DNA of 53,474 bases, taken from positions 1 through 53,474 of the IMG/VR virus record IMGVR_UViG_3300050139_000115; one strand, given 5' to 3'. A program made the position numbers and the translations under genes. Below, in pieces: positions 40,125 to 47,469 of the stretch. The notes beneath the pieces were generated by a model. That model ran no database searches and was not told the origin of the DNA. It saw nothing but the letters and a program-made list of their open reading frames with translations. Numbering within the stretch: position 1 is the stretch's first letter; every line of letters begins with the position of its first letter. This stretch comes from a virus.

Positions 40125-40370
40125 TTATCGGCGCAATCGATTCACGATGCGCGCGATGATGCCGGGATCAGGCCGTAAGATCGCGATGTCCTGCCCGTTG
40201 TCTAAAATCACGCATTCGAAGTCGTCAAATACTTCATTCAGCATCGCGGCGGCTTCGCCACGCTGCTTGTCGGTCAGCCGAAACGGACAGCGGAATAACA
40301 CGACATCGCCCGCGCGCAAGCTGACCACGGCAGCGGATTCGAAGACGGACAGTGGATTTTCAGCGTCCAT
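40125..40370 (-). CDS. Hypothetical protein
   Basis: The 81-residue product (ESAAVVSLRAGDVVLFRCPF, RLTDKQRGEAAAMLNEVFDD, CVILDNGQDIAILRPD) is a compact alpha/beta protein. Its ATG overlaps the end of the glycosyltransferase-like gene by 11 bases. Role unknown; similar small proteins with a DVVLF-x-n-LT pattern are known in phages without function. Confidence 0.6.
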   Translation of the reverse strand: MDAENPLSVFESAAVVSLRAGDVVLFRCPFRLTDKQRGEAAAMLNEVFDDFECVILDNGQDIAILRPDPGIIARIVNRLRR

Positions 40371-40887
40371 CAACTTTGCCCGACTCAACACGCTCGACCT
40401 CGATCCCAGTCGCGCGCAACTCGGCGGTAATCTGCTCCAGCCCTTCGGTGAAGCCGTAAAACCCAAACTCGCCGTGCGTCTTGTCGTACGCTTGCGGGTC
40501 GAAACCAAGCAGCACGATCTTGACGGCGCCGGCAAGGGCGGCAATGCGGATCGCGGCGAGCGCGTTGTTGCGGATCTCGATCGTGTGGCCGGGCTCGATC
40601 GTGACGGTCTCGTACATCATTCCTGGATACAACGCGTCGATGTCACACTCAACTCCACAGATGCGCAGGCCCTTGAAACCGGCTGCGGCCTCCCAAAACG
40701 GATGATGCGGATCGAGCGCAACGAACATGTCGGCCCAGGGCGCAAACTGCACGGCGCGATTAACCGCGATGGTCTTGTAGCCGCGGGCGCCGTCGGCAAC
40801 AGCTTGGCTCATGCTTGGGGCATTGCCGAGGATGGCGACGGTCTCGCCTTTCCATAGATCGTTCGGGACAGTCCACGGTTTCGTCAT
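40360..40887 (-). CDS. DUF115/sialyltransferase-like protein
   Basis: GETVAILGNAPSMSQAVADG, then YKTIAVNRAVQFAPWADMFV, ALDPHHPFWEAA and AALAGAVKIVLLGFDPQAYD match the nucleotide-binding fold of DUF115/MptE and GT29-like proteins found in phages. It lies between the tail terminator and tail tube genes. It might transfer a sugar to a virion protein. A similar domain forms the N-terminal half of the protein at 44379. Confidence 0.6.
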   Translation of the reverse strand: MTKPWTVPNDLWKGETVAILGNAPSMSQAVADGARGYKTIAVNRAVQFAPWADMFVALDPHHPFWEAAAGFKGLRICGVECDIDALYPGMMYETVTIEPGHTIEIRNNALAAIRIAALAGAVKIVLLGFDPQAYDKTHGEFGFYGFTEGLEQITAELRATGIEVERVESGKVDGR

Positions 40888-43198: not shown

Positions 43199-43864
43199 TC
43201 ACACCCCGAGGCCTGTCCGGTAATTCCACCACAAGTCATGCACGCGCATCGGTAAAGAGAACGTCTGCGCAGCGCTCACTTCCTCGCGGTTCATGAACAG
43301 CGAGCCGATGACGAGCAGCATTCCGGCCTTAACGAGAAACGGCACAGCAGCCGGCGCCATGCCAGCAACAAACTGCACAATCACAGCGTCGTCCAAACCG
43401 TAGCCACTCCGCCTGAAGTTTTCGCTCTCGCTTGAGGCATTCGAGCCAAAACCTACTGGCCACATATCCATCTCATGGTCGAGCCGGTGATAAACAGCCG
43501 GCCACGTCTGCCCGATCTTCAGCCGCAGCTTCGGCTCGTTAAGGTTTCCGTTCAACTCATACACGGTGTCGGCAAGCGTCTGCCGAGCGCCGGCCGCGTC
43601 CAGATACGTCACACTCACAATCGAAGTCACCGGCGGGAATAGCGGAACACCAAAATTGCGCCCGCGCGCCTCACGTGTCGATACGGCGAATGCGCGCTGG
43701 CAAAACTGTTCGGCCATTTCGCGCGCGGTGCTGATCAGGCGTGTAACGTCGGCGTCGGTCGGGTGCGCCGTCACATCAGCCGGGTCGGCCGTGATCTTCA
43801 GATGGGAATTTGCCTCACCGAGCGTGATCGGTTCCACGATGGTAGTTTCAGAATCTATGCTCAC
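43199..43864 (-). CDS. Head-tail connector/adaptor (phiE125 gp8-like, HK97 gp6-like)
   Basis: The 221-residue protein has ITLGEANSHLKITADPADVT, RLISTAREMAEQFCQRAFAV and a long C-terminal helix (FLVKAGMLLVIGSLFMNREE). This is the gp6-like adaptor fold. GTG 43864 with GGAGG 6 bases upstream and a GTGA overlap is chosen; the next upstream start would overlap the methyltransferase by 25 bases. Confidence 0.8.
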   Translation of the reverse strand: MSIDSETTIVEPITLGEANSHLKITADPADVTAHPTDADVTRLISTAREMAEQFCQRAFAVSTREARGRNFGVPLFPPVTSIVSVTYLDAAGARQTLADTVYELNGNLNEPKLRLKIGQTWPAVYHRLDHEMDMWPVGFGSNASSESENFRRSGYGLDDAVIVQFVAGMAPAAVPFLVKAGMLLVIGSLFMNREEVSAAQTFSLPMRVHDLWWNYRTGLGV

Positions 43865-44391
43865 GGGGCCCTCCAGTAGCATTGACACGGTGCCGATTCG
43901 ATCACATGCAGCCCCGCCGCTTCAATCGCCTTTGCCACACCAGCGCAGTTCTTCCAATGCCAATCATCGAACACCACCAGGCCGCCTGACACCATGCGCG
44001 GGCGCAACCATACGATTGCGTCCGCCGTACTTTTCTCCAGATCCATGTCCACATGGGCGAAAGCCACCTGATCGTGCAGCCCTTCGGCGGATTGAGGGAA
44101 CAACCCGGCGATCAGGGTGACGTTCCCCGGCATCCCGGCCTGGACGGTGGTCAGAGTCGTGTCGCCGAATTCGCCCGGCTTGTGGAAGTCGATCGCCCGC
44201 CATGATTCGGCCGGCATGCCGGCGAAGGTGTCGAACCCGTAACAGGACCGCCGAGGCGAGGCCTGGGCTAGGGCTTTCAGAGTTCCACCCTGGTACACCC
44301 CAAGCTCCACGATAGCGCCCTGCAGGCCCTCCACCGTAGCCAGCAGCCGCAACAAGGCCGCGGACTTGGCCGGCGTCATCAGTGTTTGCAT
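43861..44391 (-). CDS. TylF-like O-methyltransferase
   Basis: The 176-residue protein has IVELGVYQGGTLKALAQASP as SAM-binding motif I, CYGFDTFAGMP, HVDMDLEKSTADAIVWLRPR and GLVVFDDWHW. This order is that of TylF/MycF sugar O-methyltransferases. Between the glycosyltransferase and the connector gene, it could methylate a sugar put on a virion protein. Its ATG overlaps the glycosyltransferase stop by 13 bases. Confidence 0.75.
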   Translation of the reverse strand: MQTLMTPAKSAALLRLLATVEGLQGAIVELGVYQGGTLKALAQASPRRSCYGFDTFAGMPAESWRAIDFHKPGEFGDTTLTTVQAGMPGNVTLIAGLFPQSAEGLHDQVAFAHVDMDLEKSTADAIVWLRPRMVSGGLVVFDDWHWKNCAGVAKAIEAAGLHVIESAPCQCYWRAP

Positions 44392-45923
44392 GTTTCCTCG
44401 ATAAATTTTGCAATCCGCTCCCGCGCCGCCGGCACATCGATCGCCTTGTCGTGGTTGCAACCATGCGACCAACACGCGCACGGCTTCACCGGCTCGATGG
44501 CGCACCAGGGCGAATACCGCGCACCGGCTGAAAACGACCGCGCATCCTCGAATCCGCCGAAAATAGCAATGACTGGCGTGCTGACCGCCTGCGCCAACAC
44601 CAGCGCAAAGCCGGGCGAGCAGAACACTAGATTCGCCGCCGCCGTGAGCGCGGCAATCGTCTCAAAATCCAACTCGCCGCGGTGAAACTCGGCGTCGGCC
44701 TTGATCTGCGGGCCGATGAGCCACTCAATTCCGTCCATCAGGTCCGCCAGACTGATCACGAAATACCGATCGCGGATGCCTGCGATCAACGCGTGGCTGG
44801 CTGCCAGGTCGGGGTTACGCGCGACCTTCGCCCGCGCCGAGCCGTTGTTCTGGTCCGAAATTGCGACCGGCGGCCGGTAGATCAGCAGCGGCTTCGTCGG
44901 TTTCAACTTCGCCAGCAGCGCGTCGGCCTTCGCTTTCCATTCCGGCTTGATTGGCATGCGGAAGTCGCCAACCGGAACGCCGCATACATGGGCCATCACG
45001 CCGAGTACGGAGCCGCAGTCCTTCACACCACGCGGCATCATGGACAGGTAACCGTTTTCAATCGTCCGCGCGCCTCGCGGTGGCTGCGTGGCGCCGTAGA
45101 GTGCTGCCGCGCGCACCTCATTCTTCGCCATCCAGCAAATCCGCGACTTTTTCGGCACTAGGTGCAGACGCGGCATATCCCAAAACACCTGCGGCCAGGA
45201 AGTCGTCAGCCAAACCTCGTTCGACTTCATCAACTCGCGCACAAGCGCCCGTTCGTGCAGGTTGTCTCCGAGGCCGTGCATGCCATGCAGGAGCAGCGCC
45301 TGCTTACCCGGCGCCAGCGCTTCCTCGATCGGCAGCCGCTCAAAACACGTGATCGCCGTGCGCCTGGTAGCGTTGACGACCTCGACTCCGTGCGAGCGCA
45401 GATCCGCACCGAGCTGCACCATGCGCCGGCCCCACTCCGGCATCGTCCCCAGGTTTGGCAAATTCCCTTCGTGGTCGCCGTGGTGATGGCTCTCACCCTT
45501 CGGCCCGCGCTGCATGTCGTAGCCGAGCAGGATGATCCGCGCGGCACCCCACATATAGGCGAGGTTAATCGCCTGGTAGCCGCTGTTCAGGCCGGTATGG
45601 ATGCGGCCTGGCTTCGTCCCCAGCCCAGGCTCGTCAACCGCCTCTACGTGGTTGATGACGCCTCGGAGCCGGTCGGCGCACGTCCAGCATTCCCCGGTGA
45701 AGTTCCGCTCGACTTCCTCGCTGTACACTGTCCACCAGCGCATGTCTGCCGCGTAGCACGCGTCGGCCCATAGCGCCTTGCGAAATGTCGTGCAGACTGC
45801 GATTACGCGCCGCTCTTGCGGTGCTTTCCGGCGCCAGGCTTTGACAAGAGCGACTTCCCCATCGCTAAGGCTTGGTCCACTGGCGAGGCAGACGACGGTG
45901 GAACCTTTCCATCGTCCGGCGCT
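44379..45923 (-). CDS. Two-domain glycosyltransferase-like protein (DUF115-like + GT9-like), in -1 frame
   Basis: First domain: STVVCLASGPSLSDGEVALV, RRVIAVCTTFRKALWADACY and NSGYQAINLAYMWGAARIIL (DUF115/GT29-like). Second domain: LLLHGMHGLGDNLHERALVR and LVFCSPGFALVLAQAVSTPV, AIFGG (GT9/heptosyltransferase-like). No ATG, GTG or TTG lies in this frame between 46283 and about 45746, yet the conserved start is near 45900. The frame joins the upstream 106-residue gene by a -1 shift at GGGAAAA (45929-45923). Joined product about 581 residues. An indel error is the alternative. Confidence 0.7.
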   Translation of the reverse strand, partial: SAGRWKGSTVVCLASGPSLSDGEVALVKAWRRKAPQERRVIAVCTTFRKALWADACYAADMRWWTVYSEEVERNFTGECWTCADRLRGVINHVEAVDEPGLGTKPGRIHTGLNSGYQAINLAYMWGAARIILLGYDMQRGPKGESHHHGDHEGNLPNLGTMPEWGRRMVQLGADLRSHGVEVVNATRRTAITCFERLPIEEALAPGKQALLLHGMHGLGDNLHERALVRELMKSNEVWLTTSWPQVFWDMPRLHLVPKKSRICWMAKNEVRAAALYGATQPPRGARTIENGYLSMMPRGVKDCGSVLGVMAHVCGVPVGDFRMPIKPEWKAKADALLAKLKPTKPLLIYRPPVAISDQNNGSARAKVARNPDLAASHALIAGIRDRYFVISLADLMDGIEWLIGPQIKADAEFHRGELDFETIAALTAAANLVFCSPGFALVLAQAVSTPVIAIFGGFEDARSFSAGARYSPWCAIEPVKPCACWSHGCNHDKAIDVPAARERIAKFIEETCKH

Positions 45924-46123
45924 TTTCCCGCTTCGGCCACGATAGCTGCGGCACCGCGCACGCTCAGCGCCTGATCGACGCGGCGCGCTATGAGCTTCAC
46001 GCGCACGAGGCCGGCGCGCTCCAAGTCGCGCGCAAGGCCCTCTTCCATCAGCATCGGCCGGCCTTCGTCCGCGTTGATGTGGCCGTGGACAAAGGAGGTC
46101 AACGGCACTGCTTCGACTTGCAT
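45803..46123 (-). CDS. Capsid-adjacent conserved protein (zero frame)
   Basis: The 106-residue protein MQVEAVPLTSFVHGHINADE, GRPMLMEEGLARDLERAGLV, RVKLIARRV is of a kind often found directly after the major capsid gene; a decoration or connector-related role is possible. GGAGAAAAGATA precedes the ATG. It ends 120 bases after the slippery heptamer at residue 66-67, so the short form lacks the glycosyltransferase part. Confidence 0.65.
   Translation of the reverse strand: MQVEAVPLTSFVHGHINADEGRPMLMEEGLARDLERAGLVRVKLIARRVDQALSVRGAAAIVAEAGKAPDDGKVPPSSASPVDQALAMGKSLLSKPGAGKHRKSGA
45894..45929 (-). other. Candidate -1 frameshift signal: G GGA AAA plus hairpin
   Basis: In the zero frame codons 65-67 read GCG GGA AAA, giving G GGA AAA. 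After a 6-base spacer (GCGCCG) comes a stem GACGATGG/CCACCGTC (7 of 8 pairs) with a 7-base loop. Heptamer, frame and spacing all fit a programmed -1 shift into the glycosyltransferase frame. Confidence 0.6.
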
Positions 46124-46135
46124 TATCTTTTCTCC

Positions 46136-46163
46136 AAAAAAAGGCCCGGCCGAAACCGGGCCT
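46136..46163 (-). terminator. Terminator after the major capsid gene
   Basis: On the - strand the stem GGCCCGG/CCGGGCC with a 6-base loop is followed by TTTTTTT. It lies 20 bases after the major capsid stop codon and would lower expression of the genes further on. Confidence 0.85.
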
Positions 46164-46182: not shown

Positions 46183-47469
46183 TTACGTCGCCGGCAGGTC
46201 AGTATTCTTGATGAAACTTTCCGGCCGATACACCGCGAGTCCCAGTCTCTCTTCGTTGCGCACCGAAACCATGTTGCGCACAAAGTTGTCCTGATCTTCG
46301 CTCGATATCACGACGTTCGAATCCTCCCGGTCGAACACCTGCGCGCCAAGCTTGAACGCGCCGACAAGCGCCGTGTCCACCGTCATCGCCGGAGTATCCA
46401 CTACCGGCCGCCCCCACAAAGCAGGTTGCGCCAGCGATTGCGGATTCGCGAAGATGTAGGCGCCGATATCGTTCTTCGTCAACTCGATCGCCGCCCAGTC
46501 CGACGGGTGCATCACGATACCGGTCGACGGAAATAGCGCGAGTTCTGCCTGCAACAGCATCAGGCGAATCACGTCGATCTTGGTCGCTTTCGCAATCGCG
46601 ATCGGTGCGCTAAACGCAGTTGCCTGCGTATAGATGCCGTTCAGGTTGTTCCCGACACCGGAGCCCTTCAGCAATTGCGTTTCTTCTTTGAATTGCAGGC
46701 CGTAGCGGAGCCGTTGGTCGATCATCGATTGCAGTTGCGCAAAGTCATCGAGGATCTGCTTCGATGCCTTGATCCAGTGCGCGACCGTGACGACAGCCGA
46801 CTGCATGAGTTCGTAGGTGATGTCCGATTCCGGCTTGAGCGTCGTTTCCGAAACGGTCGCGGCGTTGTTGGTAAACCCAGTTTCCTTCACGTACTGGATC
46901 AGGTTCGATCCGGTACGACCAGGGCTGATCAGGTCGCGCACCGTCATACGCCGCTGCGGAATGCCGATGATGCCAGGCTGAAAGTCCGGCGCCACCCCCG
47001 TGGTCGTCGTGTTCGTTGTCGGGATGCTGGTGAGCGCCGCCTTGACCGGCAGCACGTAACCGGACTGCGCGCTCTTCATGCCGCCAGCCCCGATCCACGC
47101 CTTGAATCCGTCGTCCGTAACGAGCATTTCCCCGAGCGTCTGCGCCTGCGGCTTTTCCTCGGACCCGCGCCGCGCCGCCTTCTGCTCCACCTCGAGCAGC
47201 CGCGCCTGCAGCTCGCCCTGCTTGACCAGCATTTCGTCGACCTTCGGCTTGTCGGCCGCGTACATGTCGCCGTATTTCTTCGCCTCGGCCAGAGCCTTTT
47301 CGCCGGCCTCTTTAACCTGGTCGCCGATCTTGTCCAGCGCGGCCTTGATTTCTTTCGGGTCCATGTCGTACAAAACCATGCCGACGCGCCCCATGTACCC
47401 GGTCAACGCGCGGTGGAGTGATTCCCCGAGCGCTACCGCCACGGCAACAGCCATTACTTTCAGTTTCAT
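46183..47469 (-). CDS. Major capsid protein, HK97 gp5-like
   Basis: The 428-residue protein has a charged coiled-coil delta domain (about 37-105; MDPKEIKAALDKIGDQVKEA) and an HK97 fold part: VKETGFTNNAATVSETTLKP, WIKASKQILDDFAQLQSMID and NPQSLAQPALWGRPVVDTPA. The delta domain should be cut off by the protease encoded upstream. The hydrophobic first 20 residues are unusual for a capsid protein. Confidence 0.95.
   Translation of the reverse strand: MKLKVMAVAVAVALGESLHRALTGYMGRVGMVLYDMDPKEIKAALDKIGDQVKEAGEKALAEAKKYGDMYAADKPKVDEMLVKQGELQARLLEVEQKAARRGSEEKPQAQTLGEMLVTDDGFKAWIGAGGMKSAQSGYVLPVKAALTSIPTTNTTTTGVAPDFQPGIIGIPQRRMTVRDLISPGRTGSNLIQYVKETGFTNNAATVSETTLKPESDITYELMQSAVVTVAHWIKASKQILDDFAQLQSMIDQRLRYGLQFKEETQLLKGSGVGNNLNGIYTQATAFSAPIAIAKATKIDVIRLMLLQAELALFPSTGIVMHPSDWAAIELTKNDIGAYIFANPQSLAQPALWGRPVVDTPAMTVDTALVGAFKLGAQVFDREDSNVVISSEDQDNFVRNMVSVRNEERLGLAVYRPESFIKNTDLPAT

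Follow-up and report, generated by a model that had tools for sequence, protein, structure and literature searches.

A conserved -1 frameshift behind the phage major capsid gene is predicted to fuse a small head-gene protein to a glycosyltransferase

In a phage, the small gene that immediately follows the gene for the major capsid protein is predicted to be joined, by programmed -1 frameshifting, to a two-domain glycosyltransferase (GT) frame that lacks a nearby start codon. The stretch of DNA that was analyzed (the window) comprises positions 1 to 53,474 of IMG/VR virus record IMGVR_UViG_3300050139_000115. On the evidence of sequence comparison, we put the probability that programmed frameshifting yields this fusion at about 0.94. 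Conservation of the arrangement, the identity of the slip sites, a switch in codon periodicity, covariation in a stem, and a natural in-frame fusion all lend strong support to the programmed -1 frameshift that the original prediction had proposed for this locus. The arrangement seems to be common to dozens of phage lineages, including Pseudomonas phage D3.

Arrangement of the locus in the window

Genes on the minus strand run in the order terminase, portal, ClpP-type protease, major capsid protein, a 106-aa gene, the GT frame, a TylF-like methyltransferase, and a head-tail adaptor (Table 1). The open GT frame spans 46283 to 44379, and the sole ATG, GTG, or TTG upstream of its conserved motif is the TTG at 46283, which lies inside the capsid gene. 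Its register is exactly -1 relative to the 0-frame gene (46123-45803). Within that gene, GGGAAAA (45929-45923) stands in X_XXY_YYZ phase at codon 67, where the 0-frame codons read GCG GGA AAA. The absence of a start codon near the conserved GT N-terminus, the exact -1 relation, and the G GGA AAA in the preceding gene had all been claimed in the original prediction, and each of them holds. The predicted fusion has 67 + 514 = 581 residues with the junction ...VAEAGK/SAGRWKGSTVVCLASGPSL. RNA folding places a 10-bp stem after a 4-nt spacer, and its 8-bp core (45916-45909 paired with 45898-45891, 6-nt spacer) matches the 6-base spacer and eight-position hairpin described beforehand. The stem by itself is not exceptional against shuffled sequences (z -1.2); a stem is also predicted in two relatives, L001 and L002 (L numbers denote loci of the survey). 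G_GG.A_AA.A is outside the strongest E. coli shift motifs. Because the Trp of a G-R-W motif that precedes the conserved motif is kept in nearly all relatives, the GT frame extends further upstream. A start at the out-of-frame ATG 45912-45910, hidden by a single-base indel, was ruled out by the same Trp, which is kept in the GT frame.

Two neighboring features may bear on expression and chemistry. A terminator-like hairpin follows the capsid gene, with 0.8 such hairpins expected by chance in the stretch scanned. Since L001 and L002 carry inverted repeats and T runs that resemble it by eye, the hairpin may set an expression step after the capsid gene. The TylF-like methyltransferase is likely to belong to the same glycan pathway as the GT, and methyltransferases are found near the GT in D3, PP9W2, and Psp6 as well. 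Elsewhere in the window, among the tail genes, a second MptE-like protein related to PHROG 4603 has its own ATG (40360-40887, minus strand) and weak similarity to the GT N-half.

Table 1. Features of the capsid-glycosyltransferase locus in the window
Feature	Coordinates	Strand	Basis
Major capsid protein (HK97 type), directly upstream of the 106-aa gene	46183..47469	-	Pfam Phage_capsid E 1.8e-56; phrog_10 E 2e-67
Terminator-like hairpin AGGCCCGG-TTTC-GGCCGGGCCT followed by a T tail, separating the capsid and N-domain genes	46142..46163	-	Consensus scan
0-frame gene (ATG, 106 aa), unshifted product: N-domain fold at residues 1-44, then a tail predicted to be disordered	45803..46123	-	Translation; AlphaFold2; family alignment
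Slippery heptamer G_GGA_AAA, predicted shift after Lys67	45923..45929	-	Sequence; same place in L001/L012, L002/L013, L178
Predicted stimulatory stem-loop, arms 45918-45909 and 45898-45889	45889..45918	-	RNA fold
Glycosyltransferase of two domains in the -1 frame (N-half MptE/Maf-like; C-half GT-B, GT9-like); 514 aa follow the shift	44379..45922	-	phrog_4603, phrog_6804, fold matches
TylF-like methyltransferase, directly downstream of the GT	43861..44391	-	Pfam TylF E 2.4e-14

Conservation among relatives

Two viral contigs (67% and 60% identity) retain GGGAAAA, the -1 relation, and the absent start, so the heptamer keeps its place in the two nearest relatives; conservation of the heptamer was a check named with the original prediction. 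Larger scans found 205 loci with a GT match, which fall into 66 groups at 85% identity. The arrangement of a GT without a start, a -1 relation, and an overlapping 0-frame ORF is present in 54 of the 66 clusters: 49 have an overlapping 0-frame ORF and lack ATG, GTG, and TTG within 40 codons of GPS, and 5 more have only GTG or TTG. The major capsid gene directly precedes the small gene in 51 of the 54. For D3, PP9W2, Psp6, and Tetraselmis virus S20, GT homology already begins ahead of the annotated GT start, where it runs in the -1 frame relative to the gene before it. D3 reads ATC CCA AAG at this point, that is, C_CC.A_AA.G, and its orf6.5 and orf7 (L005, 5691-6409) look like a single gene pair joined by frameshifting. 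About 30 codons of the conserved domain precede the orf7 start as annotated, and the same is true of PP9W2, Psp6, and S20; a missed recoding event would thus leave the GT N-terminus mis-annotated in many records.

A relative with a normal GT start had been named as evidence that would speak against the frameshift. Such copies do exist, namely the stand-alone GTs without an N-domain in PAJU2, Eowyn, and Mulvp2, but they sit in other gene neighborhoods and own-start GTs occur only outside the close kin of the window. Their existence implies that the N-domain is not required for GT function everywhere. The PAJU2 homologue is labeled a structural protein in its record.

The survey also turned up relatives in other settings. 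Two contigs binned as Omnitrophota, their putative host group, have the capsid gene, the N-domain, and a GT in the -1 frame as well (L179, L180). Tetraselmis viridis virus S20 (L010) is filed as a green-alga virus and resembles a tailed phage, with the head-gene order of proteobacterial phages and the frameshift; its true host may be a bacterium. In phage P1 (79649-80185), the "morphogenetic function" genes pmgO and pmgP overlap GT homology, by which PmgO-type proteins may be glycosyltransferases; the main text of a P1 virion proteome paper makes no mention of PmgO, PmgP, or PmgN.

Slip-site identity and coding constraint

In-phase XXXYYYZ heptamers occur in 31 of the 54 clusters; the other two phases have 9 and 6, and codon shuffles give 12.7 +/- 3.1 with a maximum of 23. 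Adding C_CC.[UCA] raises the count to 52 of 54 (22 and 19 in the other phases; shuffles 31.3 +/- 3.2, maximum 42), although the C_CC.Y part of this enrichment is partly post hoc because the motif was counted after being seen in the data. The phase contrast of the plain heptamers and the contrast of CCY against CCG are the fairer tests. At a fixed distance of 15 nt from the conserved Trp codon, the C_CC.Y site reads CCCT in 17 cases, CCCC in 8, CCCA in 1, and CCCG in none. This makes 25 CCCY of 26 (binomial P 4e-10 versus local proline codon use), whereas these genes use CCG most often for proline. Every D3-type context has CCCAAAG, while AAA or AAG occupies the fixed position in the window, L013, L178, L019, L191, and L061. 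The five minimal cases are L183, L174, L186, L168, and L188, in which a stop in the -1 frame leaves 5-9 codons for the shift, always with C_CC.U or C_CC.C. In about 15 clusters the motif lies further upstream than the fixed site or there is no Trp as a reference point, and 2 of the 54 have none of the counted slip motifs. For comparison, Sharma et al. (2014, PMC4066793) ranked tetramers in E. coli as A_AA.G >> U_UU.C > U_UU.U > C_CC.U = C_CC.C > A_AA.A, with C_CCA and C_CCG weaker, and found C_CC.A_AA.G to be the most efficient heptamer (54% with the IS3 pseudoknot).

The pattern of substitution follows the predicted change of frame. Among 43 distinct D3-type haplotypes, in which the heptamer is invariant, variable sites before it fall on 0-frame third positions at 20 of 46 compared with 5 and 2 at the others. 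After the heptamer, they fall on GT third positions at 15 of 44 compared with 6 and 5, in a stretch where the 0 frame is still open. A change-point fit puts the switch from the 0 frame to the GT frame in the interval from -44 to -19 nt relative to the GPS codon, and the heptamer is at -42. The log likelihood is -191.4 at the fitted switch and -213.6 for a switch at the 0-frame stop, which is 22 log units worse. In the trio to which the window belongs, periodicity downstream of the slip agrees with the GT frame.

Stem covariation and a natural in-frame fusion

A 10-bp stem is formed in 21 gap-free relatives by GGCCGCTGGC with GCCAGCGGCC, starting 5 nt after C_CC.Y. The codons for G-R-W and A-S-G-P make up this stem, in which 94.3% of cells are paired. 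One pair only has changed on both sides, from GC to CG in L193 and L197 and from GC to AU in L184 and L033; in these four sequences a nonsynonymous change on one arm is matched by the synonymous wobble base of a glycine codon on the other. RNAalifold recovered the same helix. The window trio has a shifted stem, in which the G-R-W codons pair with T-V-V codons.

One relative has the fusion without the shift. In L032 (2839-3582), the N-domain and the GT share a single 247-aa ORF directly after a probable capsid gene, with the junction RDRP/RDGRW compared with the VIRDRP/FANRW expected from the shift in L176. L032 sits among frameshift lineages on the GT tree; as it is one contig only, an assembly indel is possible. 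On this tree, which is partly resolved, there are several changes of own-start form and of slip-site type (14 when all labels are counted), and the repeated exchange of slip motifs implies that the frameshift itself has been kept. In L097 (1300-2158), the GT is sister to a C_CC.Y lineage and the N-domain-like sequence upstream is out of frame without showing the usual -1 register, a layout that may reflect decay, another recoding, or an assembly error.

Domains of the predicted fusion

AlphaFold2 modeled the 0-frame product with pLDDT 91-93 at residues 1-40 and pLDDT 51-66 afterwards. The nearest phage folds of the N-domain are those of the lambda gpFI C-terminal domain (gpFI-C, 2lsm; Z 5.0, 43 residues aligned, 1.5 A) and B. 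subtilis YqbF (2hjq; Z 5.4), both modest scores, and GINS B-domains reach Z 5-7, as high as gpFI-C or higher. Binding to the major capsid protein is described for gpFI, whose proposed action is via that protein (PMC7889075). For the N-domain and the GT N-half, profile searches against solved structures returned chance-level matches only.

The GT matches PHROG 4603, annotated as alpha-2,3-sialyltransferase, at E 2e-42 over its N-half (profile 1-174 of 178) and phrog_6804 at E 2.6e-23. The N-half score against Pfam MptE-like (PF01973) was 18 bits, below the gathering cut-off of 34.6. Sequence profiles do not place the C-half in glycosyltransferase family 9: Pfam gave no match, and the match to 1psw has E 0.97 only. 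In the GT model (pLDDT 86), the N-half resembles Maf (5mu5, Z 16.1), an archaeal pyrophosphokinase (8sd5, Z 11.7), and a sialyltransferase (9c08, Z 10.2), and the C-half resembles the GT9 structure 3tov (Z 19.5), TibC (4rb4, Z 19.4), and heptosyltransferase II (1psw, Z 18.2). Maf and TibC are enzymes of protein glycosylation. Across the GT alignment, GPS and HxHxDH are invariant and NSG is nearly so. The MptE-like and GT-B halves form one ORF in the window (44379-45922), L181, L029, L183, and L188 (Bordetella, Achromobacter, and Burkholderiaceae prophages) and separate genes in D3, PAJU2, and Psp6.

Proposed role and alternative explanations

In the proposed mechanism, most ribosomes would finish the small gene at its stop and release the 106-aa product. 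A minority would slip one base back at G_GGA_AAA, aided by the stem-loop in the first GT codons, to give a 581-aa minor protein with the N-domain, a linker, the MptE/Maf-like GT, and GT-B. Because it would be made only upon a -1 slip, the enzyme would always be attached to the small head-gene protein. The N-domain, which resembles gpFI in position and weakly in fold, would bind the capsid protein or procapsid, so that the frameshift would both dose the GT and dock it on the assembling head. There, the GT and the neighboring methyltransferase would glycosylate a virion protein. The original idea of an enzyme delivered to the head is plausible, as it fits a partner gene behind the capsid gene and the weak gpFI-C-like fold. 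We give even odds to docking on the head via the N-domain, and an acceptor that is protein rather than lipid or LPS seems to us equally a coin toss. The broadest version, against which we lean slightly, is a widespread strategy in which a few copies of a protein GT are frameshifted onto the assembling head via a gpFI-like docking domain, coupling capsid glycosylation to assembly at a set stoichiometry. If true, the slip in this strategy would in many cases fall on C_CC.Y, a tetramer seldom described, together with a stem made from codons of the enzyme's own conserved motif.

The frameshift could also be real and serve only to set a low GT dose, with the N-domain as an incidental leader and the enzyme acting elsewhere, such as on host LPS or O antigen. 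Stand-alone GTs without an N-domain and the resemblance of the GT-B half to LPS heptosyltransferases speak for this reading, which we consider less likely than not. A weak start codon could give a low dose, nearly every cluster draws its partner from one small-protein family and keeps the pair behind the capsid gene, and L032 keeps the N-domain though it has dropped the frameshift. Separate initiation of the GT at the upstream TTG (46283), a weak GTG or TTG, or a nonstandard codon is highly unlikely. D3-type loci do offer a GTG or TTG 22 codons before GPS, but the divergent D3-like loci L155, L156, L157, and L159 have neither and yet retain CCCAAAG, several loci have a GT-frame stop about 14 codons before GPS with no start codon after it, and TTG 46283 is inside the capsid gene. 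We give still less credence to transcriptional slippage as the source of the fusion. Runs that would suit it are AAAAAAA in L021 and L022, TTTTTT in Psp6, and a short A run in the window, but most sites (CCCY, CCCAAAG, GGGAAAA) are runs too short for polymerase slippage, and the phase of the motif relative to the reading frame matters. A sequencing indel or decayed gene, which a single base could mimic in one contig, has a negligible chance: the arrangement recurs in 54 clusters, among them D3-type isolates sequenced independently and numerous bacterial genomes, and the GT residues are under selection.

A programmed frameshift that ties an enzyme to phage heads would make virion glycosylation in Pseudomonas-type siphophages testable in a laboratory phage. 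The natural series of slip sites at one position (C_CC.Y, A_AA.G, GGGAAAR, CCCAAAG) should also be useful for frameshift rules beyond IS elements and tail chaperones.

Comparison with known systems

Literature searches, which covered few subscription papers, turned up no account of this frameshift, nor did term searches within a frameshift review and the PRFect paper point to one; this is no proof of novelty. A conserved recoding event has apparently been missed even in well-studied phages such as D3. On the protein side, lambda gpFI-C (2lsm) and YqbF (2hjq) weakly resemble the N-domain in their small fold, at a modest score and with no sequence-level proof. The genes for gpFI in lambda and YqbF in the skin element lie behind a capsid gene, like the N-domain gene, and neither protein is known to carry an enzyme. 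The Maf flagellin glycosyltransferase (5mu5) and the TibC protein heptosyltransferase (4rap/4rb4) share the folds of the two GT halves, but at low identity, and neither is part of a head-gene frameshift.

As for recoding, T7 gene 10A/10B and the phage A2 major head protein likewise use a -1 slip in a head-region gene to make a minor, C-terminally extended protein. In those phages the capsid protein itself gains a structural domain, whereas here a separate small protein would gain an enzyme. The lambda G/GT tail chaperone (of the Xu et al. 2004 type) is likewise a widely conserved -1 frameshift in a small morphogenetic gene with a heptamer of the GGGAAAG kind, but it differs in gene position, partner, and product class, which is a chaperone there and a glycosyltransferase here. 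Closest of all is phage D3, where orf6.5/orf7 have the same arrangement with CCCAAAG and appear to be the same system, annotated as two genes with a late orf7 start, with orf7 as an alpha-2,3-sialyltransferase and the GT-B half separate as orf12.
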